From a virus, in IMG/VR virus record IMGVR_UViG_3300050014_000185, positions 1-35,655 of that record: a DNA stretch of 35,655 bases. One strand, 5' to 3'. Each line of letters begins with the position of its first letter. The first letter of the stretch is position 1. This document shows, one piece after another, positions 1 through 31,640 of the stretch. Below the pieces are notes generated by a model that did no database searches, had not been told where the DNA came from, and saw only the letters and a program-made list of their open reading frames with translations. The translations under genes and the position numbers were made by a program.

Positions 1-410
1 TATGCGCTGCGATACTGCCATCAGCCATCGGAGGCCGTGCAGCTTGAGGCAGTCAAGCAAGATGGCTGTGCGTTGCGATACTGCCATCAGCCCTCTGAGG
101 CCGTGCAGCTCGCAGCCGTGCAGAAAGATGGCTATGCGCTGCAATACTGCCACCAGCCCTCGGAGGCCGTGCAGATCGCAGCCGTGAAGCAAGATGGCGA
201 TGCGCTGCGATACTGCCGCCAGCCCTCGGAGGCCGTGCAGCTCGCAGCCGTGCAGCAAGATGGCGAGGCGCTGCGATACTGCCATCAGCCCTCGGAGGCC
301 GTGCAGATCGCAGCCGTGCAGCAAAATGGCGATGCGCTGCGATACTGCCACCAGCCCTCGGAGGCCGTGCAGCTCGAAGCCGTGAAGCAAAATGGCGATG
401 CGCTGCAGTA
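1..410 (+). repeat. 66-bp coding tandem repeat array
   Basis: About six copies of a 66-bp unit run head to tail without spacers, each containing the words ctgcgatactgcc and tcggaggccgtgcag. The unit is a multiple of three and stays in frame with the protein above, so the array is coding. Two other frames also stay open for stretches because of the periodicity; those are shadows. The array runs off the left edge of the window. Confidence 0.9.
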
Positions 411-504
411 TTTTAAGCGTGCATGGATAAAAGAAACAAAGCGAAAAATCACAATCGAAGAAATCGAAAGTGAGCTTGGTTTTGAAGTTGAAATCGTAAA
501 ATAA
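1..504 (+). CDS. 22-residue tandem-repeat protein (DUF4116-like), 5' end outside window
   Basis: The frame is open from base 1, so the N-terminus is missing; the internal GTG at 37 is not a convincing start. Residues up to about 135 are six to seven copies of a 22-residue unit with the pattern ALRYCHQPSEAVQLAAVQQD, ending in a basic, non-repeat tail of about 30 residues (KETKRKITIEEIESELGF). The pattern (Q-[TP]-x-E-x-x-x-L-A-A-V-x-Q-[DN]-G-x-A-L-x-Y) resembles the helical-repeat proteins grouped as DUF4116-like, which occur in phages, large viruses and bacteria; their role is unknown. Repeat copies differ by only a few bases and are clearly richer in G+C than the following genes, suggesting recent expansion or acquisition. 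The next gene on the same strand starts 11 bp downstream. Confidence 0.75.
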   Translation, partial: YALRYCHQPSEAVQLEAVKQDGCALRYCHQPSEAVQLAAVQKDGYALQYCHQPSEAVQIAAVKQDGDALRYCRQPSEAVQLAAVQQDGEALRYCHQPSEAVQIAAVQQNGDALRYCHQPSEAVQLEAVKQNGDALQYFKRAWIKETKRKITIEEIESELGFEVEIVK

Positions 505-1562: not shown

Positions 1563-1636
1563 GTGCCTTTAGCTCAGTTGGTTAGAGCGGTAGACTCATA
1601 ATCTATTGGTCGCTGGTTCAATTCCAGCAAGGCGCA
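1563..1636 (+). tRNA. tRNA with CAT anticodon (tRNA-Met, or tRNA-Ile2)
   Basis: A complete 74-nt cloverleaf can be drawn. The acceptor stem is GTGCCTT with AAGGCGC (7 bp, one G-T), the D stem is GCTC/GAGC around AGTTGGTTA, and the anticodon stem is GTAGA/TCTAT with loop CTCATAA. The variable loop is TGGTC, the T arm is GCTGG-TTCAATT-CCAGC, and the discriminator is A. No CCA is encoded. CAT can read AUG (Met) or, after lysidine modification, AUA (Ile2); the sequence does not decide. Its 3' end abuts the stop codon of the convergent minus-strand gene at 1637. Confidence 0.93.
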
Positions 1637-2200
1637 TTAAAATCCTAGAGAAACAATAGCCTGTGCTCCCACAGAATAGCCACCTACATAGCTAATACCT
1701 GTGTGGTGGACATCTCCAGATACGGACAAAATCGGAATTAGTTGACGGGAATATCCCACCTCAATCTCAGGCGATACGCTAAATGGCTTCGCTGCACCTC
1801 CTAGAGAGGCATACACGGTATTTTTCTTCTCAACAGGCAAAACTACCTTCTCATGGTAAATCGACACGGTGTCATGCTTAAAAACGGCTGTTGTGTCGTG
1901 TTTTACTTCGACAACGCGGATCGTATCGGTAACGGTCGCGCCCGAATCCAAAACGGTTGTCTCAGTACCAAGCGTGTCATGCACCGTCACTCGATGAATC
2001 TGTACTTTGATAGACTGAGTGCGGTAATAGTTTAGCGAGTCGCGCAAAGAATGGATCGCGCTTGAGTCAACCACGGATACGGTTTTCACTACCTCTTTCA
2101 CCATCTCTTTTGGCTTTGCAGTCCACTCGACAATTGCCAATAGAGCAACGAGAAATAGAGCGATTGATAAACTAATCAATCCTTCTTCACGAGTTGTCAT
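1637..2200 (-). CDS. Membrane-anchored spanin candidate with C-terminal beta-rich domain
   Basis: The 187-residue product begins with a short cytoplasmic segment and one membrane helix (about residues 8-26, LISLSIALFLVALLAIVEW). A charged, partly coiled-coil periplasmic stretch (about 30-75) follows, then strands with a recurring HDT motif (VHDTLG, KHDTTAV, KHDTVSI). The last 60 residues look like amphipathic beta strands and end VSLGF, an aromatic C-terminus like that of outer-membrane beta proteins. It is the last gene of the lysis cassette and overlaps the holin by 14 bp, where Rz-type or unimolecular spanins normally sit. I infer a protein that bridges inner and outer membranes in the last step of lysis. 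No small lipoprotein partner (Rz1) was found nested in it. Confidence 0.5.
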   Translation of the reverse strand: MTTREEGLISLSIALFLVALLAIVEWTAKPKEMVKEVVKTVSVVDSSAIHSLRDSLNYYRTQSIKVQIHRVTVHDTLGTETTVLDSGATVTDTIRVVEVKHDTTAVFKHDTVSIYHEKVVLPVEKKNTVYASLGGAAKPFSVSPEIEVGYSRQLIPILSVSGDVHHTGISYVGGYSVGAQAIVSLGF

Positions 2201-2432
2201 TTACTGCCGCCTTTCCCAATTCTTTACCGCGCTCCAAAGCATCACTAATTTTCCGAGAGGCATCAAGGCGACCATAAATGGCCGCAAGTCCTGCACAAAC
2301 CTTGACGGCAAGAAGGACTTTTGGCGCGATGGTGACATACGTTTGCACCTCTGGTAGCAATGTTGCGATAAGGCCAATACCTATAAATGCGTATGTTTTA
2401 AAGCCGTCAATCTTTGCAAGTAGTGTTTTCAT
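2187..2432 (-). CDS. Putative holin
   Basis: An 81-residue protein with two hydrophobic segments (about 13-28, FKTYAFIGIGLIATLL, and 36-55, APKVLLAVKVCAGLAAIYG) and a charged C-terminal tail (ASRKISDALERGKELG). Small size, two membrane helices, a charged tail and position between endolysin and spanin candidate are the usual marks of a phage holin. Holins permeabilise the inner membrane and set lysis time. Its ATG overlaps the endolysin stop as ATGA (2429-2432), so translation is probably coupled. No sequence family assigned. Confidence 0.6.
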   Translation of the reverse strand: MKTLLAKIDGFKTYAFIGIGLIATLLPEVQTYVTIAPKVLLAVKVCAGLAAIYGRLDASRKISDALERGKELGKAAVNDNS

Positions 2433-2854
2433 GGGTTAAATATAACCAGTGCGCCCACGGCTTTGCATGGATCTAGGTAGTATGAAATATGAATCCATGT
2501 AGGAGTAGCCAATTGATTCTCTGAGCGAAATACTTTTAGGATCTGCGAGTTATCATAGATCAATTTCCGAAGAGTTGGAAGGTCTGAGCAGTGCAGATCA
2601 AACGCTCTCGCTTGGTTGGGATTTACGATCTTGTGATCTGAATGAGCTGCTCCAACAGTGCAGTTATCCGCACGAATGCCACAATGCTGGTTGAGTCCTG
2701 CATTGATGCTAATTGGCTTTCCGTACATCTCGCGGATCTTATCTAGAGAATCGCAAATATGTTGCGGGATCATAGCCCAGCACTCCGCTTCGCCGTACTC
2801 GCTCAATACTTCGGGCTGCACAAGTTCGGTAATGTGGAAATGCTGGGTAGGCAT
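2429..2854 (-). CDS. Endolysin, M15-type zinc peptidase
   Basis: The 141-residue protein has the layout of phage peptidoglycan peptidases of family M15 (D-Ala-D-Ala carboxypeptidase/endolysin fold). There is an N-terminal helical part (CDSLDKIREMYGKPISINAG), then a zinc-site region AAHSDH..ARAFDLH (about residues 69-88) supplying His and Asp, and a second zinc His in TWIHISYY (about 119-126). The His-to-Asp spacing is longer than the common SxHxxGxAxD form, apparently by an insert of about five residues. It would cleave cell-wall stem peptides at the end of infection. There is no signal peptide, in agreement with a holin next to it. Its ATG shares one base with the stop of the DUF6496-like gene (TAATG). 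Confidence 0.8.
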   Translation of the reverse strand: MPTQHFHITELVQPEVLSEYGEAECWAMIPQHICDSLDKIREMYGKPISINAGLNQHCGIRADNCTVGAAHSDHKIVNPNQARAFDLHCSDLPTLRKLIYDNSQILKVFRSENQLATPTWIHISYYLDPCKAVGALVIFNP

Positions 2855-3063: not shown

Positions 3064-3420
3064 CTACTGGTTAGCTTGTCCGAACGCCATATAGCTAGGA
3101 GCACCAGAAGAGTCGCCAGATCCATCGGAAGGCATCATGTCTTGATCTTGATCGCTACCCTCCATGGTATCATCATAGCCCTGTTGTTGTCCTTGCTGTG
3201 TAGGTAGCTTGAAATTCTTATTCTTGACGATCTTCATGATGGTAGGCCAGAGCTCTTTTGGAATCTCAACGCCAAGAAGCGTTTCTAGATTTTCGATTTG
3301 CTTAGGCTCTAGCTCTTCTGGCACAGTTCCTTGCTGAGTCTGTGGCATAGGTGCGCCAGAACCCATTGGCGTGCTCTGTGCTCCCTGCATAGACGAATAA
3401 AGGTCTGCTAATTGTGGCAT
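3064..3420 (-). CDS. Hypothetical Q/P-rich protein (118 aa)
   Basis: The N-terminus (about 1-32) is rich in Ser, Pro, Gln and Met. A compact helical segment (about 33-70, PKQIENLETLLGVEIPKELW and IMKIVKNKNFKLP) follows, then a low-complexity acidic tail (GSDQDQDMMPSDGSGD). No family recognised. It sits between the aspartoacylase-like gene (25 bp upstream) and the DUF6496-like gene and is probably cotranscribed with the lysis cassette. A disordered accessory or virion-associated protein is possible, but nothing in the sequence proves it. Confidence 0.6.
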   Translation of the reverse strand: MPQLADLYSSMQGAQSTPMGSGAPMPQTQQGTVPEELEPKQIENLETLLGVEIPKELWPTIMKIVKNKNFKLPTQQGQQQGYDDTMEGSDQDQDMMPSDGSGDSSGAPSYMAFGQANQ

Positions 3421-3445: not shown

Positions 3446-4369
3446 TTACCAGTTGTGAATTTCTTTTGTCGTTAAGCTCATTGCATCATTATACTCTGTT
3501 TGATAAGCAACCTCATCAATCATCACAGGCCATACGGTTTGATCTCCTGTCCATTTTACAGGCTGTCCAGCACCGTCAAGCATAATTACATCACCTTTGT
3601 TAATGGGTAGATAATCAGACATCAAGAGAGGTGGAAAAACCTTTCCACCGTCTGGATAATAAATATCACCAAGCTGCTTGAATACCGTTACCTTTGTTGG
3701 CTTACCAATATTTCCACGATTCCATTCTACCAAAAAATTAAGTATTTCGTGAACCAAATCATATTCATAACGTGCTTTTGCTGGATCAAATTTGCCATGG
3801 GGAACGGGGCCGACTTCGACCGTAAATCCGTTACGGCTCAATGAATCAAAAGACGTATCAGCAGTAATATCGTCAGGAGTATACCAAACATTAACCCAAG
3901 GAAATTTCTTTACAACATGTCCGATCACGCGCTTATTCAAGGGAGTCGCTTGGGAAACGATTATGCATATTCCCATGTTCGCGGTGGTGTTGTGCAGGTC
4001 TAAAATAAAATCTGGATTCTTAGGATTCAAAGGTTTTCCACCAAGAGCCTCTGCGATCTGTCGAGCGATCTTCAATTCTCTTGGGTCGCTTTCGCTTGGT
4101 GCTGCATATAGAGTGTCAAACCCAAATTGGTCATTCATATCCACATCTTGAAAACGAACGCACTTAGAATCGTTGTCTACGTCAGCTTTTATCATTGAGA
4201 CGCGCAATCCTTCACGCTCAAGCTCTTTCGGATTCTTGAGCCAGTAGTTCCCCAACTCCATAGACGTTTGTTCATTTCCATGCACACCTGTCGCAATCAC
4301 AACCGTCCTGATCGGATCGGTACAAACTGATTCTTTAGTGATTGAGTATGTGATTGATAGGCTGTTCAT
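3446..4369 (-). CDS. Aspartoacylase/AstE-AspA family zinc amidohydrolase
   Basis: The 307-residue length and motif order match the aspartoacylase/aminoacylase-3 branch of the M14-like AstE/AspA family, which removes acyl groups from N-acyl amino acids. Visible motifs: ATGVHGNE (zinc ligands His30 and Glu33), KCVRFQDVDMN (Arg72, Asp77, Asn79), DLHNTTANMG (zinc ligand His126) and VEVGPVPHG (catalytic Glu185). The C-terminal beta domain also aligns with human ASPA in order (PINKGDVIMLDG, WPVMIDEVAY). The family usually has DLNR here; this protein has DMND, so the substrate-binding Arg is Asp80. That suggests an altered substrate, while the zinc and catalytic residues look intact. The start overlaps the stop of the upstream membrane protein (ATGA). 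Its place just before the lysis genes suggests late expression. Confidence 0.85.
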   Translation of the reverse strand: MNSLSITYSITKESVCTDPIRTVVIATGVHGNEQTSMELGNYWLKNPKELEREGLRVSMIKADVDNDSKCVRFQDVDMNDQFGFDTLYAAPSESDPRELKIARQIAEALGGKPLNPKNPDFILDLHNTTANMGICIIVSQATPLNKRVIGHVVKKFPWVNVWYTPDDITADTSFDSLSRNGFTVEVGPVPHGKFDPAKARYEYDLVHEILNFLVEWNRGNIGKPTKVTVFKQLGDIYYPDGGKVFPPLLMSDYLPINKGDVIMLDGAGQPVKWTGDQTVWPVMIDEVAYQTEYNDAMSLTTKEIHNW

Positions 4370-4674
4370 TTTTTCACTTGCGCGTATACATCGCGATTTA
4401 CTTTTTTTGACTCTGAATATCGGTGCGAAGTATGATCTTTCAATTCTCGAAGAATGCTATTCATATCATCTAGTTTTTGATTCATTACCGCGAAGTCTGT
4501 GGTGATTGTATAAATCTTTGAATCTTGACCCATGTCGTAATTCGTCGGCATTGTAGATGTCTGTAATGGTTGCGACGATTGCGACGGAATGACAAGCTTA
4601 ACCCCTAAGTCGCCAAGGATAACAAGGACAACTGTAACAATCATCTGGACAACTTGCTTCATATCGAATGACAT
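4366..4674 (-). CDS. Single-pass membrane protein with coiled coil (102 aa)
   Basis: An N-terminal membrane helix (about residues 7-30, VVQMIVTVVLVILGDLGVKL) is followed by a polar linker and a probable coiled coil (about 62-80, MNQKLDDMNSILRELKDH), with a basic end. This shape occurs in Rz-like spanins and in antiholin-like membrane proteins, but the lysis cassette is separated from it by three genes and no family is recognised. It is coupled to the aspartoacylase-like gene by ATGA overlap at 4366-4369. Function unknown; a second lysis or envelope protein is the likeliest guess. Confidence 0.6.
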   Translation of the reverse strand: MSFDMKQVVQMIVTVVLVILGDLGVKLVIPSQSSQPLQTSTMPTNYDMGQDSKIYTITTDFAVMNQKLDDMNSILRELKDHTSHRYSESKKVNRDVYAQVKK

Positions 4675-4704: not shown

Positions 4705-4863
4705 TTACGCCTTCACATCTATTGGATACAATATATAGACCTCAATCCAAGATAAGTATGCTGGATTACCAACATTAGAAAGTGCTAATGTTATACATTC
4801 ATCTAATCGAGAAGCTTTAATTGTTGGATCAATTGTAGATTGAAAAATTGTTGTTGTATTCAT
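4705..4863 (-). CDS. Hypothetical small protein (52 aa)
   Basis: Reading from ATG 4863 gives 52 residues containing FQSTIDPTIKASRLDEC and a hydrophobic/aromatic C-terminal part (AYLSWIEVYILYPIDVKA). Its ATG shares one base with the stop of the 461-residue fibre gene (TAATG), the same coupling device used elsewhere in this block, which is the main reason to call it. No family recognised; it may be a small partner or chaperone of the fibre encoded immediately upstream. Confidence 0.5.
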   Translation of the reverse strand: MNTTTIFQSTIDPTIKASRLDECITLALSNVGNPAYLSWIEVYILYPIDVKA

Positions 4864-6248
4864 TATGACTTAACCCTCATAAATAAATGATATGATCGTT
4901 CTCCATCTGGTGTAATAGTTGATGGAGCAGACGTTAATGTTCCCATATTCGATTTATACCATGCTAAATATGGACTTACATTCATGTTTTGCCCATTTAT
5001 TCCCTGAGCTAACGCTCCATTTCCATTCCAGAAAAAAACAGGAAAATACTTCTCTCCAGCATTTAATAGTGATGAAACAATATTAGTTAGCAAAGCATAA
5101 ATCCAAGAAGATGATGAAGGCATCGTTTGAATTCCACTTGATGCAACAAGATTGTAAGGAGAACCTGATCCTACTGAATAAATAGCCAAAATATAAGAAG
5201 CCCCATTAACAGGCTGAGGAACAATCAAAGCCATTTCAGACGAAGTAGTAAGTTCAACATCTCCATATGGAATGAGCATTGAGGCAATAGCAACCCAATT
5301 ATTTGATGCTCCTGTATCTATCGATATGTTTGCGCTAGCTGCTGCCGGTTCCATTGTTGAAGCATATTTACAGTTCGATCCACCAGAGTAAATAGGAATA
5401 TTCAAAACACCTGAATTTAGTGTTGACGCTCCACTTGATCCGGTCGTTGTCAACGACGTTACGGCACCATTAGTTCCAGCGGGCCCTTGTTGTCCAATTC
5501 CATTTGGACGGTAGATCATCAAAAAATCACCTAGAATTGTATCTGTGCTTCCACCTTGAGGAGTTACAGAAATAAATACCGTATCTCCAAGAGCTAGAGT
5601 TACATAAGCTTCAATATATACTTGGCATTGAGTTGTTGCGCTTGCGGGGTCAACAACAGGCATGAATTCTGCGGTGATTGGTGTTGGTATTGATCCGCTA
5701 TTGATTACAATAGAAGCGTATGCGTTTGTACTCGGAACGCTTCTTGTCATGTCGGCAAAAAACACAATCCTATAATCACCAGCTACCTGCGCTGTATAAA
5801 TCCCAGTTGACGCACTATATGCCCCATTAGTAATTCCCCGAATAATATCCCTGCTAGAGGACTGCTGGCCTACTTTTGGTATCCAGCTAGAGCTATGTCC
5901 ACCTGATGTATCTACGCCCGTGAGCGCGACTGCATACGGGTCTACTCCTGTTGGTATAGTACCCGTGAAATTAACGACTGGATTGTGTGGATCAGTATTA
6001 TCAACGGTTATATCTGTTCCGCTACTAAGCGTCCGAACACCGTTATTATTTACGATAAGAAAATCATTAGTAAGACCTGGATTCGTTATTCCAATGTTTA
6101 ACCCAGCAGTAACTTTTGCAAGCAAATCACTTGGGATTGTATCAACAGGAGATGCAAGAACAAGATGGTCACCAGAACTAATCGAATCTCCCGATTGGAG
6201 TTCTTCGATTCTTCCGGAGTTAAGAACTAATGGCTTTCTTACCGTCAT
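4863..6248 (-). CDS. Tail/head fibre-like structural protein (461 aa)
   Basis: The N-terminus (MTVRKPLVLNSGRIEELQSG) is of a type seen at the start of many phage fibre and decoration proteins. About residues 110-245 form a beta-rich, C1q-like segment (YTAQVAGDYRIVFF, YASIVINSGS, ALGDTVFISVTP). A short collagen-like GQQGPAGTNG follows, then a C-terminal Ser/Gly-rich beta domain of about 180 residues that probably exposes the receptor-binding or decoration surface. The gene follows the 172-residue structural gene by 3 bp and is coupled to a 52-residue gene downstream. The exact virion position cannot be told from sequence. Confidence 0.65.
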   Translation of the reverse strand: MTVRKPLVLNSGRIEELQSGDSISSGDHLVLASPVDTIPSDLLAKVTAGLNIGITNPGLTNDFLIVNNNGVRTLSSGTDITVDNTDPHNPVVNFTGTIPTGVDPYAVALTGVDTSGGHSSSWIPKVGQQSSSRDIIRGITNGAYSASTGIYTAQVAGDYRIVFFADMTRSVPSTNAYASIVINSGSIPTPITAEFMPVVDPASATTQCQVYIEAYVTLALGDTVFISVTPQGGSTDTILGDFLMIYRPNGIGQQGPAGTNGAVTSLTTTGSSGASTLNSGVLNIPIYSGGSNCKYASTMEPAAASANISIDTGASNNWVAIASMLIPYGDVELTTSSEMALIVPQPVNGASYILAIYSVGSGSPYNLVASSGIQTMPSSSSWIYALLTNIVSSLLNAGEKYFPVFFWNGNGALAQGINGQNMNVSPYLAWYKSNMGTLTSAPSTITPDGERSYHLFMRVKS

Positions 6249-15432: not shown

Positions 15433-17250
15433 CTATTGATAAATATTTCCTTGGGTAAGATGAGATGTTAATGGTTGAGTGATTGTTAATGGGGTTCCTA
15501 ATGTTGGGGAGAACGTAGGAATACTAGAATCAATTATTCCATTTGCCGAAGGGATCAAGTCTTTTTTATTTTCAGCGATCAAAAATGACTCTGCTGTATT
15601 TTTCATTCTCTGAACGGCATCGGGAATAACTTTTGTAACAGCAACGTCATAAGTTTCTTCTACCGTTGGTACAAGGCCACTAAACCATTGAGAATCTGGA
15701 ATAGAATGTACGTTAACAAGCTCTTTAACAATTTCAGAAATAGGCATTCCAGCCGTCGAATTAAATTCACGTAACGGAGATCCTGTTTCTATACGAGTCA
15801 TTGCGTCAACTATTGCAAAACGAGCTGGCATAGACTGCATTAAATCGCCACGCTTATTTGCTACGTTCCAATGAGTATTAAACGCTTGCAGTAAGGAAAT
15901 GGTCTGTTTTGCTAAAGTGAAATCCTTGACTAGATTAGCCTGTTTCAATGCAGCAGTCAATAGTTGTCCAGTCTTTTGATCTATACTCAATTCCTTTATT
16001 TTCGTTTCTTGCGCCTTCTGTGTAATCTGGTCTGTTTTTGTAGCCTCTTCTACATCAGCTTTCACAAGAGCTGTTCTAGTACTTGCTACTAGCTTTTTCA
16101 TGCTCTCCATATCTCTTTCCGTTCCCCCCGCCTCTGCGATAGCGGCTTGATCTGGATCATAAGTAGCAGGCCAGCCAGCAAGGGTTGTTAGCTCTCCATC
16201 ACTAAGACCAGAACTTTGCATTGCTATGGATCTTGCGTCATCTAATGTTTTTTGGTTATAAATTTTACCACCAACGAACGCATATTTAAGAGATTTTTGT
16301 AACGAGCTTATTTTTTGCGGTGACGTTGCACCCTTATCCGTCATAGATCCAAGACTACGAATCTGCGCCTCATTACCTTCGTATGTAGTCGGAACGCCTT
16401 GAGAATAATCCATTCCAGCGGGAGAATTTACACGTAATGAATGTAACGCAACATCAAGCGAATCCTGGTCTTTAACGTTAGGCAAATATGTCTGAAAGTT
16501 CCTTCGCTTATCCGAAGCGGACGCAATTTCTAGGCGTGATTGTGCAATGCCATTTTCTTGTTTAACGATACCAGATAACGCCTCAATCTGAGCCTCTTTC
16601 AATGGATCAATTTTACCGCTAGCATCTAGCACAGTATCAGGGATTGCGGCAAGAGAGGCTGGGCTAATCGTGCCAATTCCAGCCAAGTAAGCCTTGGCGT
16701 TCTTTAGTCCAGCGTCCATCTTTGCGGCATCGTCCTTCAATCCAAGAACTTTCTGCATGGCTGTCTGCACTTCTTTATTCTGCGCCCCTTCGCCACGGCC
16801 AGAGTAAGCAAGCTGCCAGCGTTTTTCTGCATCTTGCAACTCCATTGCTTTTACTGGATTCGTTTCTGCAAGCTGCTTCATGGTCTCATCGTGCCGCTCT
16901 TGCGCTGTCATCGGTGCGTTATCTTCTGTGTCTGATAACGCTTTCAATTGTCCAAGCAGTGATGTCAATTGATCAACGCTCATGCCAGACAAATCACCCT
17001 GAGCAATATCAATAGGATCTGTAGACGCAATAGGCGTAGGCGCAGCTTGTGAAGTGGAAATAGATGGAGTTGAAGCCGTTGCGTCAGGAATTGGAAAACT
17101 AGGCGTAGGCTCTATATCTGGGGAGGCTTTTGGCATTCTTCCAAGCAATGCGTCCATGCCGTTGAAGAGACCAGCACTAGGGATCGTTCCAGTTCCAAAA
17201 TCTTTAATTGGACTACTTAAAGTCAATGTAGATGGATCAATATAAGCCAT
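15433..17250 (-). CDS. Putative ejection/internal virion protein (605 aa)
   Basis: The N-terminal 80 residues are rich in Pro, Ser and Thr (MPKASPDIEPTPSFPIPDAT). The rest is dominated by Gln/Lys/Ala/Glu helices (SDTEDNAPMTAQERHDETMK, EATKTDQITQKAQETKIKEL, LTAALKQANLVKDFTLAKQT) with few cysteines or hydrophobic cores. That composition and its place after the gp10-like hub fit the large helical ejection proteins of podoviruses, which form a channel across the envelope or accompany DNA. Its ATG shares one base with the stop of the 199-residue gene. No specific homologue can be named. Confidence 0.5.
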   Translation of the reverse strand: MAYIDPSTLTLSSPIKDFGTGTIPSAGLFNGMDALLGRMPKASPDIEPTPSFPIPDATASTPSISTSQAAPTPIASTDPIDIAQGDLSGMSVDQLTSLLGQLKALSDTEDNAPMTAQERHDETMKQLAETNPVKAMELQDAEKRWQLAYSGRGEGAQNKEVQTAMQKVLGLKDDAAKMDAGLKNAKAYLAGIGTISPASLAAIPDTVLDASGKIDPLKEAQIEALSGIVKQENGIAQSRLEIASASDKRRNFQTYLPNVKDQDSLDVALHSLRVNSPAGMDYSQGVPTTYEGNEAQIRSLGSMTDKGATSPQKISSLQKSLKYAFVGGKIYNQKTLDDARSIAMQSSGLSDGELTTLAGWPATYDPDQAAIAEAGGTERDMESMKKLVASTRTALVKADVEEATKTDQITQKAQETKIKELSIDQKTGQLLTAALKQANLVKDFTLAKQTISLLQAFNTHWNVANKRGDLMQSMPARFAIVDAMTRIETGSPLREFNSTAGMPISEIVKELVNVHSIPDSQWFSGLVPTVEETYDVAVTKVIPDAVQRMKNTAESFLIAENKKDLIPSANGIIDSSIPTFSPTLGTPLTITQPLTSHLTQGNIYQ

Positions 17251-17849
17251 TATCCAACCCCATAGATGGAGGACAGAGTATCATTCTTATTTCCAAGAAT
17301 GCTTGAAACACGGTCATGCAAATTATTCTGAAACTGTTCTGCACGGTTGTTTCCAGCCCAAGCGAGAGGAATTCCGAGATCTTCTGAAACAGGTTCAGGA
17401 AGTGGAACAATAGGAGTGGGAACACTATCTTGTGATGCTTCCTGTTGCTTCCCAGCTTTTGACAATGCATCTTGCACTTTCTGAATCAGTGAATGCAGCA
17501 ATGCAGATTTGCCACCTGAACGCTTCCAGTCGGTCGGAATACTCACTCCAAAATCGTTCATGCGTTCTTGCTGCGCCTGAGTCCTGTACTTTTCTGCAAG
17601 CTCAGGTGAAATATCCATCAGATCAGCCGCCAAGGCCTCTGTACGCCTCGATCCAGTAAGACCAGCATACTTGTGGTCTTTCGGATCGTTGAAGGCTTTA
17701 ATCAAGTCCTGAGCCTTGTAATTCATCACGCCAGAACTGATTGCATTCCCAAGCTTATTGATGCCCTCACCAGCCCTTGCGCCAACTGCGTAAAGGTCTT
17801 GCTGTTGCAACTGTGGAATATCAATAAGATTCGTCGAAAAGTTTGCCAT
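17250..17849 (-). CDS. Putative ejection-complex protein (199 aa)
   Basis: Starts MANFSTNLIDIPQLQQQDLY and continues with a helical segment (ARAGEGINKLGNAISSGVMN), a basic/charged middle (SRRTEALAADLMDISPELAE) and a Pro-rich C-terminal part. The opening resembles internal proteins of podoviruses, in which short N-terminal peptides are followed by amphipathic helices. It sits between two putative ejection proteins, 9 bp after one ends and sharing a base with the next, which is the main evidence for a role in DNA transfer. No domain recognised. Confidence 0.5.
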   Translation of the reverse strand: MANFSTNLIDIPQLQQQDLYAVGARAGEGINKLGNAISSGVMNYKAQDLIKAFNDPKDHKYAGLTGSRRTEALAADLMDISPELAEKYRTQAQQERMNDFGVSIPTDWKRSGGKSALLHSLIQKVQDALSKAGKQQEASQDSVPTPIVPLPEPVSEDLGIPLAWAGNNRAEQFQNNLHDRVSSILGNKNDTLSSIYGVG

Positions 17850-17858
17850 AAATAATCC

Positions 17859-18662
17859 TTAAAGTTTTGACAATGCGCCAAGGCCACCTTGTAGAGCTGC
17901 TTCCCAGCCTGTAGCCGTACCATCTTCCTGAGCACCGGCTTGCATTCCTATTTGCTGGGCTTGCAAAGCGGCTTGATCTGCTGCGCTTGTAATATCAATA
18001 GATCCTTTAGCTTGCGTATTGAAATTCTGTCCCTGTGCGTTTACCGCGTTCTGCTTTTGTCCAAGGCTTGATAGGTAATTTCCCTTGTTGAAATCTGCAA
18101 CGGATCGAGCCTGATTAAACTCATCAAGATATTTTTGGTACTGGTTCTGCTCAAGTCCTGTTGCTGCATTCTGCGCGGTATTCCATTGCTGCGCTTCGAT
18201 TGGAGCAACCGTTTGAGCGATAGCCTTTCCTGCTGCACCGCTAAATAGCTTTCCAGCATTTGCCGAACTCTGCTCAACAGCACCAGTAGCAGCCTTTTCA
18301 ATTGCTTTGCGCTCTGGATTTAGTAACGCCTCTGTATCAGAGTTTTTTTGATCTGTCGTGAGCCCAGTATAAGGCGCAGCCGTCTTCAAATTGTATTGCG
18401 AGAAATCCGCATTATTTGCAGCGTCGTAATAGTTCTGCGCGTTTTTTGTGTAGCCTTCTGTGAGCGGAGAATAAAGGCTAGATAACTGCGCTTGCTCTCC
18501 GCTTGCTTTTTGGGCGATTGAATTGGCGAGGTCTGTTTCACCATTTTGCAACGCCTTTAGGTATGCAACCTTATCATCAGCAGACATTGCGGCACTTGCC
18601 GCACCACCAATAACGCTTGCTGCACCAATAGTTCCCGCAATATATGGGTTTGAAGAAGACAT
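17859..18662 (-). CDS. Putative DNA-transfer (gp7-like) ejection protein
   Basis: The 267-residue protein starts MSSSNPYIAGTIGAASVIGG, a small-residue hydrophobic segment that could insert into a membrane. It continues as an Ala/Gln-rich helical protein (NSIAQKASGEQAQLSSLYSP, YQKYLDEFNQARSVADF, DQAALQAQQIGMQAGAQ). An N-terminal Gly/Ala hydrophobic patch followed by Gln/Ala helices is typical of P22 gp7-type DNA-transfer proteins, and the gene lies in the corresponding position after the tail hub. The next gene in the direction of transcription begins 9 bp on. Assignment rests on composition and synteny. Confidence 0.55.
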   Translation of the reverse strand: MSSSNPYIAGTIGAASVIGGAASAAMSADDKVAYLKALQNGETDLANSIAQKASGEQAQLSSLYSPLTEGYTKNAQNYYDAANNADFSQYNLKTAAPYTGLTTDQKNSDTEALLNPERKAIEKAATGAVEQSSANAGKLFSGAAGKAIAQTVAPIEAQQWNTAQNAATGLEQNQYQKYLDEFNQARSVADFNKGNYLSSLGQKQNAVNAQGQNFNTQAKGSIDITSAADQAALQAQQIGMQAGAQEDGTATGWEAALQGGLGALSKL

Positions 18663-18664
18663 TA

Positions 18665-19069
18665 TTAATCCCTCACATTCTGGATATTTTTCATTTCTAC
18701 GATCACGACACCATTAAAAGTAACATCAAAATTTCTACCACTCTCAACAAAAAGATTTGACTGTGAAATACTGCCATCAGTAGGGTCAATCTTTGAAATA
18801 ATTACCACCGCATCTTTAAGCGGAAACGGTGATATAAATGTAGTGACTCCATTCAACGTAGCTTTCACTTTCGCGTCCCAAAACATAGAATGCTTTATCC
18901 AAAAACCTTCTCCACCAATACCACCGTTCCAATCGCCCTTTCCCCACGATCCTTGCAGAGCACCAGCAACCTGTTTAATCGATGAAGACCATTCTTCATC
19001 TGTGCTTGGTACTGCATGGTTGTCGTTTATCGTAACGATTCTTTTCTGAGCTTGTTGTGTTCCTGCCAT
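18665..19069 (-). CDS. Hypothetical virion-assembly protein (134 aa)
   Basis: A soluble 134-residue protein with a polar N-terminus (MAGTQQAQKRIVTINDNHAV), a Trp/Gly-rich middle (GSWGKGDWNGGIGGEGFWIK) and beta-rich C-terminal half (LKDAVVIISKIDP, NFDVTFNGVVIVEMKNI). It lies between the gp10-like hub and the first ejection protein, where P22 has gp26 (tail needle) and gp14 (assembly factor), but the sequence shows no coiled-coil needle. A small tail or assembly protein is the best positional guess. Confidence 0.5.
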   Translation of the reverse strand: MAGTQQAQKRIVTINDNHAVPSTDEEWSSSIKQVAGALQGSWGKGDWNGGIGGEGFWIKHSMFWDAKVKATLNGVTTFISPFPLKDAVVIISKIDPTDGSISQSNLFVESGRNFDVTFNGVVIVEMKNIQNVRD

Positions 19070-19078
19070 AAAATTCTC

Positions 19079-20593
19079 TTAGGTATTTGAACATGGTTGA
19101 TAATCAAGACGAGCCTGATAAATTGCACAAGGCCCCGGATACGAAGTTGTCAATCTGAAAACAAAAGAACGACCAAGATTTGGAATGCGTCTCCTAACAT
19201 AAGTTCTATATGCACCCTGCTTTCCTGTGCTCATCGTGTTTACTGATCCATAGGTGTAACCAGCGTCATTACTAACTTCCAACTGCAATTTAGGATCTGA
19301 ACCATATCCAGAAAGCAAAGGCGTTACCCCTACCTCCATGTCTACCGCGAGTTCTCGCGTTTGGATTTTGTCCAGACTATCAAAAATTGGTTGTGCAGTG
19401 CGTTGCCGAACAACTTGGCGACCGTCAAACTCGGTAAATAAATCCTCTGAAAGTCGAATCAGATATGAAGGGTGTGCGCCAATCAATCCGGTGTAAATCT
19501 CACCACGGACAACGATTCCGAACTGGTACGGATAAACTAACCATTCACCACTTTCAATGTCTCGTAAAAGTCTTTCAGTCCATGTATTCGTTGTGACTTC
19601 GTAAACAAAAGTACGATTTGAATTTGGGAATGACAGAACGTAGTAGACCATTGACTTATGCGAGTAAGCCCAGCCTAGTGCGTCTGTCTGATCGGCTAAG
19701 GACATAATTTGATCTTCGATAGCCATATCACTGATACGGTTCATCGATGTTCCTTGACCCATGTAAACGCCAGCAGCGCCAACCTCTGAGCCACCAAGCC
19801 AGAAGATCAAATTGTTTACCGTAGCCACCGACTGAGCGGCAACAATACCAATAGAAGACTGCGAACCAGCCGAGTAGCTATAAGGGTCGTACTGGTTATC
19901 ATTCGTGCGCCAAATCTCGACGGCTTTATATCCGAAAATCCAAAGTGATCCATTGCAGCTTGCGACCGCAAGGATATTATTTGCGCTCGTCGCCATCGTG
20001 TAAAAATCTGCTGCACCCCATTCCAATGGCGTATCTTGCTTTGGCAATCCTGAGAAATACCATTGATTCGTGCTCTGCGAATTGATAAGTAAGCGTTGTC
20101 CCAAAAAGGCTACGTGTGTAGGCGATACGTTTTCTACTGGGGTTAATCCAGCGATAGGAGGGAGTCCAGAAGAAATCAAAGTATTTGCATCACCGTCTTC
20201 CGCATTGAGTGGATATTCCCAAAGATTGAACCCATCAGCAACAACAAAACGGAATCCGTTATCCATCATGCGTACAGGTGTCGCTCCGCTTGAAATTGAA
20301 CCGATAGGATAAACCCCATTCAGTGATTCAGCAAAACGGAAAACGGTATAACCCCATACGCCATAAAGTCGTGGCATTCCATTCGGGCCTGTTGACGAAT
20401 AAAAAAGACCTCTGCAATCTTCAAAATCTGTCATCACTTCGAGCTTAATTTCTGCTCCGGGAGTTGGCATCAAAACGGTCTTAGACTTGGCTCCTGCGTT
20501 TGTCAAATGCTCGACAACCCAATTGATTGTACGCTGCGAAGATAAAGACTTCTGCGCCAATTCATACGAGCTACCTACAATGTCTAGCATCAT
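19079..20593 (-). CDS. Packaged-DNA stabilisation/tail hub protein, P22 gp10-like
   Basis: The 504-residue length and style match the gp10 family of P22-like phages. The N-terminus has the typical QKSLSSQRTINWVVEHLTNA and KTVLMPTPGAEIKLE, and it is followed by repeated beta-propeller-like strands (GLFYSSTGPNG, YGVWGYTVFRF, RFVVADGFNLWEYP, HVAFLGQRLLINS, ILAVASCNGSLWIFG, AVEIWRT). A C-terminal beta domain ends with FRLTTSYPGPCAIYQA. gp10 forms a hexameric hub between the gp4 ring and the tail needle, and holds packaged DNA in place. It follows the gp4-like gene by 3 bp, as in P22 order. One of the safest assignments in the window. Confidence 0.85.
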   Translation of the reverse strand: MMLDIVGSSYELAQKSLSSQRTINWVVEHLTNAGAKSKTVLMPTPGAEIKLEVMTDFEDCRGLFYSSTGPNGMPRLYGVWGYTVFRFAESLNGVYPIGSISSGATPVRMMDNGFRFVVADGFNLWEYPLNAEDGDANTLISSGLPPIAGLTPVENVSPTHVAFLGQRLLINSQSTNQWYFSGLPKQDTPLEWGAADFYTMATSANNILAVASCNGSLWIFGYKAVEIWRTNDNQYDPYSYSAGSQSSIGIVAAQSVATVNNLIFWLGGSEVGAAGVYMGQGTSMNRISDMAIEDQIMSLADQTDALGWAYSHKSMVYYVLSFPNSNRTFVYEVTTNTWTERLLRDIESGEWLVYPYQFGIVVRGEIYTGLIGAHPSYLIRLSEDLFTEFDGRQVVRQRTAQPIFDSLDKIQTRELAVDMEVGVTPLLSGYGSDPKLQLEVSNDAGYTYGSVNTMSTGKQGAYRTYVRRRIPNLGRSFVFRLTTSYPGPCAIYQARLDYQPCSNT

Positions 20594-20596
20594 AAA

Positions 20597-21343
20597 TTAC
20601 CTACTCGCGTTACCAGTGAGTATGTTATTTACGCGCATTGAATTAGATCCTGTTAGATCGTCAAGCGTAGGAATCTTAGAGCGGCTATTTGCGCGACGAA
20701 TTCTATTGAAAGCCTCTTCCCATAAAACTTTTGCGTTGGCGCAAGTATCAGATGGAAGCTGGAAATAGGCGCATAGCTTACGTGCAAGCCCTGTAATAAA
20801 CAACTCCATGTATTCCATTGGTGCAGATAATTTAGTTGATATGGAAACGTCCTGAATGGGCGCATTGTATATCATTATCCATTGACTCCCCGCTTGTGGC
20901 TTGATGTCGAAATAAAGAGTCTGATATGGATAATTACCATCAAGAGCAAAGAACAATGGCGTACCGATTGCCGTAACAACTGTTCGACGGTAAAGCAAAT
21001 CAGAAAGGTCTTGCTGCTGCACATTCATTGGCCGAGTATTTACGCTTGGGTAATACAAAAGGCGATTGATAAAATCTGGTCGAATCGCAGAAATATCAGG
21101 GGCGGGAAATCCAATTTCTTGAATACCAATCGTGTAGGTTATTTGCTGTGCAGAAGGTTTTGCCGTTACTACTTCGCGCGTCCATGGAAGAAATGCATCA
21201 ACGTTCCACTGGTGCAGCAAATTATTGAGTAAGCTTATCGCCATTGCTCCATCATCACCATTCACCTGCTCGTTACTCATCGTCATGCCTACCTGTTGGT
21301 ATGCAAGCTGTACAACGGATTGGATTGATATTGACATGGGCAA
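20597..21343 (-). CDS. Head-completion/tail accessory protein, P22 gp4-like
   Basis: The 248-residue protein begins MPMSISIQSVVQLAYQQVGM, with LLNNLLHQWNVDAFLPWTRE following (about residues 35-60). The pattern GEG/DGAMAISLLNNLLHQWN and the C-terminal helical part (MEYMELFITGLARKLCAYFQ) are characteristic of the gp4 family, whose twelve copies bind beneath the portal to close the head. It is followed by the gp10-like hub and preceded by the coat cluster, exactly the P22 order. Upstream a 12-bp perfect inverted repeat separates it from the 166-residue gene. Confidence 0.8.
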   Translation of the reverse strand: MPMSISIQSVVQLAYQQVGMTMSNEQVNGDDGAMAISLLNNLLHQWNVDAFLPWTREVVTAKPSAQQITYTIGIQEIGFPAPDISAIRPDFINRLLYYPSVNTRPMNVQQQDLSDLLYRRTVVTAIGTPLFFALDGNYPYQTLYFDIKPQAGSQWIMIYNAPIQDVSISTKLSAPMEYMELFITGLARKLCAYFQLPSDTCANAKVLWEEAFNRIRRANSRSKIPTLDDLTGSNSMRVNNILTGNASR

Positions 21344-21363
21344 ACCTGATTAAACTTTTAAAG

Positions 21364-21402
21364 GAGGGTCATGCGCAAAAGGAATAAACACGCATGACCC
21401 TC
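21364..21402 (-). terminator. 12-bp perfect hairpin between coat cluster and gp4-like gene
   Basis: GAGGGTCATGCG at 21364-21375 and CGCATGACCCTC at 21391-21402 are perfect complements around a 15-nt loop. On the transcribed minus strand the stem is followed by CTTTAAAAGTTTAA, which is not a clean U tract. I read it as a partial terminator or mRNA-processing/stabilising hairpin that would raise coat transcript levels relative to downstream tail genes. An operator cannot be excluded. Confidence 0.5.
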
Positions 21403-21418
21403 TGAGCGAGGAGGGAAA

Positions 21419-21919
21419 TTAGGCTGGAATGTTGTAGGAACCGGCAGGTACATTCTCAATCGAGAACGTGACGGTTGCAGCAGAAACGCTGGCCAATCCA
21501 GAAGACTGGATTACCCAAGCATTCTTCACGCCTTGACCGTCTGCACCACCATTGTTAAATGATTTTGCATAGAACACAACGTCCGTACTTGCATCGTTCG
21601 CCAACAGATTAACAACGGTGGAATCCGTTGCGGCTGTTGGGTTAGAGCCATGACCGAACAAGCTCACCGCTGTACCAACGGCACCAGAAGTCTGTGCGCC
21701 AGCTACGTTGAGCAGCTTAACGGCAACAGCCCTCGTAGTTCCTGTTACTCCTGTAATCGCTGAAATGCTTGCTGTGATCTTGAGATCAGAATCATAGCCA
21801 GCTTCAGAAAACGACACGGGAACGGCACCAGAAACGGTAGCAGCACCATTGTACAATACGGAACCAGCAACACAAGAAGATTCATGTGCGGCTTGTTTTG
21901 TTTGATTAAGGATAGTCAT
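21419..21919 (-). CDS. Putative capsid-associated (decoration) protein (166 aa)
   Basis: A Ser/Thr/Ala/Val-rich beta protein (AGSVLYNGAATVSGAVPVSF, LKITASISAITGVTGTTRAV, AATVTFSIENVPAGSYNIPA) resembling Ig-like or jelly-roll capsid decoration proteins. It begins 21 bp after the coat gene and is followed by the hairpin at 21364-21402, so it is part of the coat transcript. That position is common for decoration or head-stabilising proteins made in high copy. There is no family match I can state with certainty. Confidence 0.6.
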   Translation of the reverse strand: MTILNQTKQAAHESSCVAGSVLYNGAATVSGAVPVSFSEAGYDSDLKITASISAITGVTGTTRAVAVKLLNVAGAQTSGAVGTAVSLFGHGSNPTAATDSTVVNLLANDASTDVVFYAKSFNNGGADGQGVKNAWVIQSSGLASVSAATVTFSIENVPAGSYNIPA

Positions 21920-21940
21920 TGTAATTAACTCCTTTGCAGA

Positions 21941-23161
21941 TTACTGCAAGACCAAGTAAGAGGAAATCCAGTTCGAACGAGCAAGCAGGAAGCCTGTCAA
22001 CGAATCCCAGCGAGTAATATCCTCGCCAGTGATGATGCTGGATTGTGTTTGGATCAACATACCAAGCGCGGAACCCTTGGCACTCTTGGACTCAACGGTG
22101 GACAATGGCTTCAACATCGCGCTTGCGAAAATGAAGCTAAACTTATCCCACACAAGACCACGTGCGTAAGTGCTATTTGCGCGAGTCTGGAACGTTGCGA
22201 CTGCACCACTTGGGAACGCGCCAGCGGTTGAGCTGATGTTGGTTAATGGGCCAGTAGTATAGATCTGCTTGATAGGCAAGTCGATAGCATTTGCAGCAGC
22301 GGTGTAAACATCAACGCCAGCAACGCCTTGAACCACGAAAGCGTAGTTCTGTGCGCGTCCCACAGCATAGATATCAACAACCTTTACGTTTGCCAAAGTG
22401 ATAACTTCACCGGGCAACACGGTGCCAGTGAGGCTATCAGCAGCCAAGTGAAGATTCGTACCCTGAGCATTCACTGTACCAACAAAATTTGTCGTAACGG
22501 TATGAGTTCCCGTAGTCAAATTGTCAATATCAGGTGTTTCATTGAATGGCACCTTATGGTATGATCCAATCTCGCCATTGGTAAACATACCAGAGATAGC
22601 AGGAGATGGGTTAAACAGATTGATACCGCTTGCCATAACTTGCGCGTACAAATCGCAAGAAAGAACGCCATGCAAGTTACCCGTCGAACGAGCCGAACGG
22701 ATCGACGAAATGGCAACACCAAGGTCATTGAACGAAGCCGCAGAAGCGGCGCCAGTACCAGTATTGTTCACTACTGCGGTATCAGCCTTCATAATCATTT
22801 CGAGAGCTGCAACTTTTTGAACCGTAGATGCATGTTGCGCACCAAATGGAACAGCAACTTGTTCCTCGAAATCGCTCAGGTCTTGGCTCATTTCGATTTG
22901 AGTCAAAGACACTGGGGTATGACGCTGCACGAGCGTAACGCTCTGCTTTCCAGCCGTGTAGCTACGTGGTGTGTTTGTCATATCTGCACCAACGCCAGTA
23001 ACGCCATAGCCTGGGATAATCACATCCATGGTAGAGCCATTTCCGCCAACGAAATTCTTATTGAACTGAACGCTACCATTCATGAGAATGGGAAGATTCA
23101 TTTCAGTTTCTGCGATCAACGCCACCGCCTTGCGGGTGGTGATGAGGGTATTAAGAGACAT
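21941..23161 (-). CDS. Major coat protein, P22 gp5-like (HK97 fold)
   Basis: The 406-residue protein (MSLNTLITTRKAVALIAETE) is the right length for a P22-type coat. Typical features in order: an N-terminal helix, then MDVIIPGYGVTGVGADMTNT and RHTPVSLTQIEMSQDLSDFE (strands before the spine helix). Later comes AALEMIMKADTAVVNNTGTG, then a large beta domain, and finally the C-terminal SLTGFLLARSNWISSYLVLQ. It follows a coiled-coil scaffold gene by 15 bp. It would form the icosahedral head around the scaffold. Gene order and length carry as much weight as sequence similarity. Confidence 0.85.
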   Translation of the reverse strand: MSLNTLITTRKAVALIAETEMNLPILMNGSVQFNKNFVGGNGSTMDVIIPGYGVTGVGADMTNTPRSYTAGKQSVTLVQRHTPVSLTQIEMSQDLSDFEEQVAVPFGAQHASTVQKVAALEMIMKADTAVVNNTGTGAASAASFNDLGVAISSIRSARSTGNLHGVLSCDLYAQVMASGINLFNPSPAISGMFTNGEIGSYHKVPFNETPDIDNLTTGTHTVTTNFVGTVNAQGTNLHLAADSLTGTVLPGEVITLANVKVVDIYAVGRAQNYAFVVQGVAGVDVYTAAANAIDLPIKQIYTTGPLTNISSTAGAFPSGAVATFQTRANSTYARGLVWDKFSFIFASAMLKPLSTVESKSAKGSALGMLIQTQSSIITGEDITRWDSLTGFLLARSNWISSYLVLQ

Positions 23162-23176
23162 ACATTACTCCATGGG

Positions 23177-24136
23177 TCAACGACCCGTTCTTCGTTTCTT
23201 GTAGGCCGCCACCGCAGCAGCTCCGTCAACCTCTCCGTCACTCTGTCCGCCCGTGGATAATGAGCCGATAGGTGCGGGGGCTGCGGTAACTTTACGCGCT
23301 GGCTGCCCTGCATTTGCTTGCGTGGATCGTGCGTTCACACGTTCCTGCTGGCGTTCATTCCAGAGCGAGGTTTCAAGCTGCGAAAGCCTTGCAGTACGCA
23401 TATTCACAGGCATACGTTCCAACCCCTGCGCGAGGTCTGGCCGAAGCAAAAAGAACTTGAGCATTCGCGGGCCTATTTCAGAATTCTGAATGTACTCGTG
23501 AATGTCTTTGCTCAATGAGTCGGGCACTTTTAGCATTTCGTTGAATTCAGAAATCTCATCTTGCGAATCGAAGTTATCATGAATCCGTTGCGAAAAGTCC
23601 TGCCTGAATTTCTGTACTTCTTGTTCTTGCGCTAACTTTTGTTCCTGCTCTTTTTTGAACGCTATAAACCGTTCATCATTGGCTTTATTTGCGATCTGCT
23701 CCATTTGGTAGCGATCAAACTCAGCCTTATTTGCAAAGTCTTTTTCGGTCTTAACAGGTTCGACCTTCTTAGGATTCATTGCCGCTTTTAATTCTGCAAA
23801 TTCTCGTTTGAGATCTTGCATTTCGAGATCATGCTTTGCTTGCATCGCCTTTTTCTGGGCATCAAGTTGTGCAATCCTTCGATCGTTTGAATCAATGCGT
23901 GGCCTTTCGTCCTTCTTTGGTTTCAGATCTGTCTTGACTACATCATTTCTAGTGGGTTTATTTTCGGTCGGTTTCGTAACGTCTCCCAACGTCTCGACAT
24001 CGTCCTTATTAAACTCCATTAGCCTTGCTGTATGCTTCTCTCTTGGGGAGATAGGTGAGGAAGCACTTGACCCAGTTGCGACGGTTTGTTCAGGCTGTGT
24101 CGCGGCCTGTGCTGTCTCGTTTGTCATTTCTGACAT
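23177..24136 (-). CDS. Scaffolding protein
   Basis: I start at ATG 24136 (319 residues) because GAGGTACGCT lies directly upstream; an in-frame ATG at 24205 lies inside the repeat-bearing leader and lacks a good site. The protein is strongly acidic and basic by turns, with long helical and coiled-coil segments (AQLDAQKKAMQAKHDLEMQD, FKKEQEQKLAQEQEVQKFRQ), few hydrophobic residues and a basic C-terminal end (VAAYKKRRTGR). That is the usual build of P22-like scaffolds, whose basic C-terminal helix binds the coat. It sits between portal and coat. Confidence 0.75.
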   Translation of the reverse strand: MSEMTNETAQAATQPEQTVATGSSASSPISPREKHTARLMEFNKDDVETLGDVTKPTENKPTRNDVVKTDLKPKKDERPRIDSNDRRIAQLDAQKKAMQAKHDLEMQDLKREFAELKAAMNPKKVEPVKTEKDFANKAEFDRYQMEQIANKANDERFIAFKKEQEQKLAQEQEVQKFRQDFSQRIHDNFDSQDEISEFNEMLKVPDSLSKDIHEYIQNSEIGPRMLKFFLLRPDLAQGLERMPVNMRTARLSQLETSLWNERQQERVNARSTQANAGQPARKVTAAPAPIGSLSTGGQSDGEVDGAAAVAAYKKRRTGR

Positions 24137-24149
24137 AGCGTACCTCATT

Positions 24150-24232
24150 CGCTTGTTAAGGCCAAAGCTTGCCTTCGTATTTTGACATTGGGTTACGCAA
24201 CCCATCGCTTGTTATAGGCCGAGCTTGCCTTA
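24150..24232 (-). repeat. Imperfect direct repeat plus hairpins in portal-scaffold gap
   Basis: Two near-identical stretches, 24150-24175 and 24206-24231, share cgcttgtta..aggcc..gcttgcctt with two single-base indels and one or two substitutions, 56 bp apart. Between them lies TGGGTTacgcAACCCA, a 6-bp hairpin (24189-24204), and one copy itself can fold (aaggc..gcctt). The element fills most of the portal-scaffold gap and may control scaffold expression or be a remnant of a small mobile unit. Confidence 0.6.
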
Positions 24233-24240
24233 TGGACACC

Positions 24241-26367: not shown

Positions 26368-26483
26368 ATATACACAAGCCTCGGTAACCCAAGTCTGGTG
26401 ATTCCTGCCGGTGATACGCACCATGTGTATCCCGAACTAATGTCTACAATATAAGTAAATAATCTCAATAGAGTACTTAGTTC

Positions 26484-27815
26484 TCAATCGAAAAAGCTGG
26501 AATTGTACTTTCCACCGTAGCTTCCAGCGTTCAGAAGGTTTCTCTTCATGATCTCATTTGAGATTTGACGTTCTTGAGTGGAGCGGCCAAATATGTTTCC
26601 GTTGTCGCCTAATAACGAGAGACAAAACGAATCTGAGTAGTCGGGAGACCGCTTTAAATACCGCTTGATTTCAAGCTTCGGGAGCATAGATATTCGATTC
26701 TTTTTATCTAGCGTATAAGGTGTGTACTCAAGCTCTTGTTGTAGCTTCAACGCGCCTCTAGGGATTGTTCCGCCATTCTCAAAATACTCTCTGGCAAGGC
26801 TATAAAGCTCTGTGCGCTGGTTTGAGAAATGCTTGTCCTTTCGTGCGCTGGAAGCAAAATTAATCGATACAACATTAAGTCCAGCTTTGCGCGGTGCGTC
26901 TGCGCTCCATGCGCCATGACCTGTGGTATCCATGTTATAGCGGTCACAGTGGTATTTAGCGTTGATAGCAAATAACTCGCCAACAAGCTTGTCCGAATCC
27001 ATATTAGAGTATGCTGAAATAAACAAAACCCTGCGCCCCTTACGGACGCATATAACGGTAGAGTCGTCACCATCACGGGCAATATCAATACCGCAAACGC
27101 AAATATCATTGTCAAGCTCTGGTGCCGGATTGTCGGGGTCGAACAAATTGTAAAACGGAACCATTCTCAATTGAGATTTATCAAGATAGTTGCCCATCCA
27201 CACATGATCGTAAAGGGCTGGATCGGTAAGCCTCATATGCTCCGCATCAGCCAAAGTTTTTGCAGAATTGAACGGATTATCTAGATAGGTTGACCGAATG
27301 ATAATTGAGTTAGGAGGTGGATCATTCTCGATAAACATTTGTGCGACTGGTGAAAATCGGTCGCGAGGGTTAAAGTTAAACCATATTTGAGAACCGTCTT
27401 TTCTCACTGTAGGGATAAGATCTGTCAAAGACTGTTGCGATGCGTTTTCTGCTTCTTCAAAAATTGCTAGGTCAATATCTGTATAAGATTTAACCTTACT
27501 TGTATCTTTGCTCATGCCAAGAAATGTGAACGTGCTGTGCGTCTTTCTATGCTCGATGTACTGCTCTGCGATCTTCCACGAAGATTCATCTTTCGCGCTG
27601 CGAATTACCCATTCGATTTGCGCCTTACTTGATTCTGCGATTGAGTTTTGATATTCGCGCAGAAGGACAATTCGCATTGAGCATAGGCTTGCAAAACTAA
27701 CAGATGCCTGAGCGCAGGCAACAGAACCACCACGACTTCTTCCTCCTACTAAAACCTTATAGGTATATGGATCGAGAAGCGGGGCGAACTGTGGCAGCAT
27801 CTCAAGCGCAGCCAT
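26484..27815 (-). CDS. terL: Terminase large subunit
   Basis: The 443-residue product has the ATPase and nuclease modules of phage packaging motors (Terminase_3 type). Residues 24-31 read GGRSRGGS where GG-R-G-x-x-K-[ST] is usual, so the Walker A lysine is replaced by glycine. Walker B is IDLAIFEE (114-121) and the coupling motif is IWFNFNP (144-150). Nuclease acidic positions are in CGIDIARDGDD (Asp244, Asp248/250), NMDTTGHG and SPDYSDSF. The start at 27815 has GAGG seven bases upstream and follows the previous stop directly. It docks on the portal, pumps DNA into the head and cuts it. Apart from Walker A all motifs look active. Confidence 0.9.
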   Translation of the reverse strand: MAALEMLPQFAPLLDPYTYKVLVGGRSRGGSVACAQASVSFASLCSMRIVLLREYQNSIAESSKAQIEWVIRSAKDESSWKIAEQYIEHRKTHSTFTFLGMSKDTSKVKSYTDIDLAIFEEAENASQQSLTDLIPTVRKDGSQIWFNFNPRDRFSPVAQMFIENDPPPNSIIIRSTYLDNPFNSAKTLADAEHMRLTDPALYDHVWMGNYLDKSQLRMVPFYNLFDPDNPAPELDNDICVCGIDIARDGDDSTVICVRKGRRVLFISAYSNMDSDKLVGELFAINAKYHCDRYNMDTTGHGAWSADAPRKAGLNVVSINFASSARKDKHFSNQRTELYSLAREYFENGGTIPRGALKLQQELEYTPYTLDKKNRISMLPKLEIKRYLKRSPDYSDSFCLSLLGDNGNIFGRSTQERQISNEIMKRNLLNAGSYGGKYNSSFFD

Positions 27816-28246: not shown

Positions 28247-28247
28247 A

Positions 28248-28877: not shown

Positions 28878-28880
28878 AGG

Positions 28881-29448: not shown

Positions 29449-29459
29449 AATTTGCAATC

Positions 29460-30781: not shown

Positions 30782-30794
30782 AAAAGGAATCCAG

Positions 30795-31543: not shown

Positions 31544-31572
31544 AATTTTGCATGAGAAAGCATGTTTTTTTA

Positions 31573-31611: not shown

Positions 31612-31640
31612 AATAAACCTTAATCAATGGAGTAATCACC

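Follow-up and report, generated by a model that had tools for sequence, protein, structure and literature searches.

The phage and the locus

The window, by which we mean the whole stretch of DNA that was analysed, corresponds to a single virus record, 35,655 bases long. It contains genes for a portal protein (phrog_156), a large terminase, a coat protein, the head-closure protein Hc3 and an Sf6-type small terminase, and because of this set of genes we regard the phage as P22-like. The portal and the terminase are only about 25-31% identical to their matches in named phages. One gene of this phage encodes a predicted zinc amidohydrolase, and it lies among the following reading frames, given from upstream to downstream:

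4863..6248, minus strand: fibre- or virion-protein-like ORF, without family match
4366..4674, minus strand: ORF of 102 amino acids with an N-terminal hydrophobic segment and a probable coiled coil
3446..4369, minus strand: gene for an ASPA/ACY3-family (AstE_AspA) zinc amidohydrolase of 307 amino acids (P0001), assigned from family profiles, PDB matches and a structural model
3064..3420, minus strand: ORF of 118 amino acids, no family match
2429..2854, minus strand: M15-type endolysin (phrog_894; PF08291 at 22.6 bits, just below the cut-off of 23.2)
2187..2432, minus strand: small hydrophobic ORF, holin-like by eye, without family match

The enzyme gene is a single intact reading frame with its ATG at 4369 and its TAA ending at 3446. 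An earlier note on this DNA had placed it at exactly these coordinates, leaving out the strand, and had described it as lying next to phage lysis genes in a late operon, which agrees with the tail-fibre-like genes on its upstream side and the M15-type endolysin and holin-like ORFs on its downstream side. The start codon overlaps the TGA of the 102-residue ORF (ATGA), which suggests that the two are translationally coupled, while the next ORF downstream (3064-3420) is preceded by a Shine-Dalgarno-like sequence of its own. In codon usage the enzyme gene falls inside the spread seen for genes that are the phage's own. Taken together, the overlap, the codon usage and the position between tail-fibre and lysis genes make it a resident phage gene, carried as cargo. 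No neighbouring gene hints at a substrate. Inspection of the sequence by eye revealed no obvious signal peptide at the N-terminus of the enzyme (MNSLSITYSITKESVCTDPIRTVVIATG) and no membrane segment or anchor.

Family, fold and catalytic residues

The protein matches Pfam PF24827 (1.8e-21), and within the AstE/AspA superfamily (PF24827 and PF04952) it reaches 77 bits with the catalytic-domain profile against a cut-off of 25, and 23.7 bits, slightly below the cut-off of 25, with the hybrid-domain profile. It also passes the curated equivalog cut-off of NCBIfam PRK02259.1 (NF002601, "aspartoacylase"), with 186 bits (8.4e-55) against 180, a narrow margin. In the PDB, phmmer matched it over nearly the full length to mouse ACY3 (1e-38) and human ASPA (4e-32). 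An AlphaFold model, built on 58 bacterial homologues with the plasmid rows omitted, is confident (pLDDT 92.4, pTM 0.89) and has a catalytic domain at about residues 20-212 and a barrel-sandwich hybrid domain at about 227-299. Over nearly its whole length it superimposes on ACY3 (TM 0.88 and rmsd 1.8 Å for 3nh5) and on ASPA (TM 0.85-0.87), an end-to-end overlay that was the structural check proposed in the earlier note. Profiles, PDB matches and model thus all bear out its assignment of a full-length ASPA/aminoacylase-3 enzyme. A loop in DVDNDSKCVRFQD that resembles a calcium-binding EF-hand was considered and rejected; its spacing is wrong by one, it lacks the glycine, and in the model this stretch is helical.

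The catalytic machinery can be followed by alignment with rat ASPA, from which the ASPA numbering is taken:

4280..4282, minus strand: His30, zinc ligand (ASPA His21)
4271..4273, minus strand: Glu33, zinc ligand (ASPA Glu24)
4154..4156, minus strand: Arg72, oxyanion/acyl-carbonyl arginine (ASPA Arg63), kept
3992..3994, minus strand: His126, zinc ligand (ASPA His116)
3815..3817, minus strand: Glu185, catalytic base (ASPA Glu178)
3503..3505, minus strand: Tyr289 (ASPA Tyr288), kept

Asn79 (ASPA Asn70) and the counterparts of ASPA D68 and G180 are also kept, so that the zinc and catalytic motifs which the earlier note had seen are all in place (H30, E33, R72, N79, H126, E185 and Y289). Twelve residues of ASPA have been listed as key to catalysis, namely H21, N23, R63, N70, R71, D114, N117, E178, G185, P232, A287 and Y288 (PMC11091098). 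In the alignments the phage protein keeps 11 of them, and R71 is the sole change.

The changed substrate site

The following positions depart from the family:

4181..4183, minus strand: Asp63 replaces ASPA Asn54 of the NPxA motif (Asn in 140 of 140 bacterial homologues, ASPA and ACY3)
4172..4174, minus strand: Asn66 replaces ASPA Ala57 (Ala in 140 of 140 bacterial homologues, ASPA and ACY3)
4130..4132, minus strand: Asp80 replaces ASPA Arg71 in the alignment, DLNR becoming DMND (residues 77-80)
3515..3517, minus strand: Asp285 replaces the mostly conserved ASPA Asn284 (Asn in 122 of 142)

The replacement of DLNR by DMND had been pointed out in the earlier note and is confirmed, and a single miscall cannot explain it, since going from Arg to Asp takes at least two base changes. 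At this position 138 of the 140 bacterial homologues have Arg, as do rat ASPA and mouse ACY3, and the other two have His, in cyanobacterial Asn-His pairs. Asp occurs in none of the 140, so that an ordinary host clade with Asp as the rule, which the earlier note had named as a refutation, is rejected. The Asn-Arg pair is intact also in the AstE- and DoeB-type relatives whose motif was readable. We take this pair to correspond to Asn144-Arg145 of carboxypeptidase A, an M14 carboxypeptidase; there the pair binds the terminal carboxylate. In human ASPA the residues R63, N70, R71, R168 and Y288 interact with the substrate (PMC10998430), and the variant R71H is annotated as pathogenic although the abundance of the protein is near-normal, 0.95 (PMC11091098). 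A pathogenic variant with near-normal abundance indicates that R71 matters for activity rather than for stability.

The changes at Asn54, Ala57 and Asn284 are absent from the earlier note, and so is that of the usual Lys291, which is Tyr293 in the phage protein. The position of ASPA R168, where an Arg goes with aspartate selectivity, is Asp175; family members differ at this place (G, R, N, C, D), and ACY3 has Glu. D171 is a further acidic shift, and two basic residues stand at positions that are usually uncharged, K243 (Met in 130 of 142) and R97 (Tyr in 111 of 142).

Relation to known enzymes and origin

The bacterial aspartoacylases of PRK02259, for example from Fibrobacter, Campylobacterota, cyanobacteria and Vibrionaceae, resemble the phage protein over the whole length and in both fold domains, and share its zinc ligands, catalytic Glu, oxyanion Arg and Asn70. 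Their identity to it is about 23-36%, their genes are on chromosomes or plasmids and not in a phage, and N54, A57 and R71 are invariant among them (save for the two His at R71) where the phage protein has D, N and D. The structures of ACY3 (3NFZ, 3NH4 and 3NH5) and ASPA (2O53, 2O4H and 4NFR) agree with the model at TM 0.85-0.88 and in the 11 of 12 catalytic residues, and differ from it in sequence (about 31-33% identity) and in having Arg71 and Lys291 instead of Asp80 and Tyr293. AstE succinylglutamate desuccinylase and the DoeB/EutE acetyl-diaminobutyrate deacetylases have the superfamily and the catalytic layout in common with it, but their TM to the model is only about 0.6. More distant still are the M14-type zinc carboxypeptidases of phages, e.g. 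Bacillus phage Moonbeam and Clostridium phage phi24R (BFVD); these are alike in the core fold but belong to another subfamily and match at a TM of about 0.4 over less than the full length.

The enzyme had been called eukaryote-like in the earlier note, and this part of its reading is not supported. The closest homologues are only about 36% identical, and Fibrobacterota give the best scores (151-154 bits, compared with 135 for ACY3 and 119 for ASPA). In the tree the phage branch is very long, about 3 substitutions per site, and with a balanced set of sequences the protein is placed beside Fibrobacterota (96/84). The AU test does not reject a grouping with the animal proteins (p-AU 0.346), of which the tree had only two. 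As both the best scores and the best tree point to Fibrobacterota, the bacterial family suffices to explain it; the eukaryote-like impression comes simply from the most familiar members of this family being mammalian. What remains of the earlier reading is a phage-borne zinc enzyme of the ASPA family with its core intact and a substrate-binding arginine replaced.

Searches for other copies

A tblastn search of 50,697 phage records (INPHARED) gave no counterpart, and scans of IMG/VR with the single phage sequence and with its alignment gave none either. Patterns at the DNA level, which are narrow in that they take Arg as CGN only, returned four IMG/VR matches for R-[FY etc.]-x-D-x-D-[L/M etc.]-N-D-x-F, all without homology, and none in 398 Pseudomonadota genomes. 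The family was not found in 41 related P22-like phage records, many of them partial. The one near-identical sister phage, a 20.4-kb IMG/VR contig (L090) with main blocks 96-99% identical to window 16194-35276, ends short of the enzyme gene. The library of predicted viral structures (BFVD) held no full-length relative, and the best match there was a 233-residue Harvfovirus protein, with a TM of 0.46 relative to the length of the query.

An IMG/VR scan led by a bacterial sequence found three contigs, all carrying Arg. In each of them an Arg-type aspartoacylase lies directly upstream of psbA (L228, 5731-6582; L229, 1346-2197; L230, 491-1342). On L228 the genes on the other side are host-like, and on L229 phage-like genes follow psbA. 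We rejected these as viral copies; with host-like genes beside the enzyme they are probably host contigs, or chimeras in which host and phage sequence meet at psbA. The Asp-type form of the ASPA family is thus known from one sequence and was not found elsewhere at the sensitivity used.

What the enzyme may do

Replacement of the arginine by an aspartate, with the residues for catalysis kept, suggests that the enzyme cleaves a different acylated molecule, probably an uncharged or positively charged one. With a probability of roughly 55%, we think that this is a cytosolic zinc N-acyl amidohydrolase in which the leaving-group pocket has switched from recognition of a carboxylate to that of a neutral or cationic group. 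A change of substrate fits a catalytic set that is kept, an anchor whose charge is reversed and two invariant residues that are altered, and random decay hardly does. As a predicted enzyme of the ASPA/ACY3 branch of the AstE/AspA family it would most likely remove an N-acetyl group. Sequence and model show that the protein retains the residues needed to hold zinc, to activate the water and to stabilise the tetrahedral intermediate, and the amide would be hydrolysed by a promoted-water mechanism like that of carboxypeptidases. The leaving-group pocket, whose charge is read from the sequence, would have been remodelled by R71 to D, N54 to D and A57 to N, together with Asp for N284 and Tyr for K291. 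An Asp within the carboxylate-binding pair suggests that the amine released need not have a free alpha-carboxylate, and that it may be neutral or cationic. The loss of Arg71, together with the lack of an Arg at position 168, argues against hydrolysis of N-acetyl-L-aspartate by the phage enzyme.

Candidate substrates would be an acetylated polyamine, an acetyl-diamine or another blocked amine. We would think first of acetylated polyamines, since these are acyl-amines with a positive charge and since polyamines in free form neutralise the DNA that a phage packages; their deacetylation would free polyamine late in infection. Made late from the tail and lysis operon, the enzyme might serve as cargo that acts on a metabolite or signal of the host and not as a lysin. 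In its full form, an enzyme that deacylates cationic or neutral acyl-amines (such as acetylated polyamines or an acylated host molecule for defence or communication) with an acidic leaving-group pocket unseen elsewhere in the family, the proposal is speculative and we regard it as rather unlikely.

In the main rival reading, a basic residue elsewhere (Lys243 or Arg97) makes up for the lost arginine. The protein would still be an N-acyl amino acid hydrolase in which Lys243, Arg97 or Arg179 now holds the carboxylate, and the Asp would be a local swap that leaves the class of substrate little changed. The new K243 and R97 could restore carboxylate binding, the second carboxylate contact (ASPA R168) varies naturally in the family, and the stretch leading up to the catalytic Glu, SLSRNGFTVE, is similar to SISKNGICLE of ACY3. 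An Asp at the carboxylate site should however repel a carboxylate, and, apart from the two Asn-His pairs, Asn-Arg is intact in every readable relative, even in AstE and DoeB types with different substrates. We find this explanation improbable, if not by far, and prefer the switched pocket.

That the protein has lost its activity, is cargo in decay or now serves for binding would be in line with the great length of its branch (about 3 substitutions per site), the loss of several positions that are invariant in the family, and its absence from all related phages checked. We nevertheless consider it quite improbable, since the reading frame is intact and coupled to its neighbour, codon usage is phage-like, the fold is confidently predicted, and every metal and catalytic residue is still in place although divergence has been free elsewhere; neutral decay is not expected to leave a whole catalytic set untouched. 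Equally doubtful is an enzyme for lysis or the envelope that acts on acylated components of the cell wall or LPS, an envelope component being among the substrates suggested in the earlier note: tail-fibre genes on one side and the M15 endolysin and holin-like cluster on the other would suit it, but the sequence shows neither a signal peptide nor a membrane segment, the gene does not belong to the lysis genes themselves, small molecules are the substrates of its nearest characterised relatives (ASPA, ACY3 and AstE), and related phages manage without the gene.

With Asp for Arg in an otherwise intact active site, the phage protein is a natural enzyme that offers a direct test of what this arginine does. 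That is relevant to the Canavan variant R71H, as the human relative ASPA is defective in Canavan disease. Should the enzyme prove to act on a new substrate, it would be a phage deacylase for small molecules of the host, a kind with no counterpart in the phage records searched by tblastn.

Other features of the phage genome

A tRNA-Met (CAT) gene lies where the lysis cluster ends (window 1563-1636, plus strand). Both ends of the record carry repeats. At the start, 66-nt tandem repeats (window 2-504) encode a DUF4116 repeat protein (37-504, plus strand, opposite to the late genes) that is clipped by the start of the record. At the other end is an array of at least 14 units of 12 nt (window 35377-35644) with SLKSSLDWPL-like repeats. 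A glycosyltransferase gene (Glyco_trans_1_2; window 29507-30541) lies between the replication and packaging genes, and the early region contains a 115-nt direct repeat, 82% identical, at window 30667-30781 and 32043-32157.
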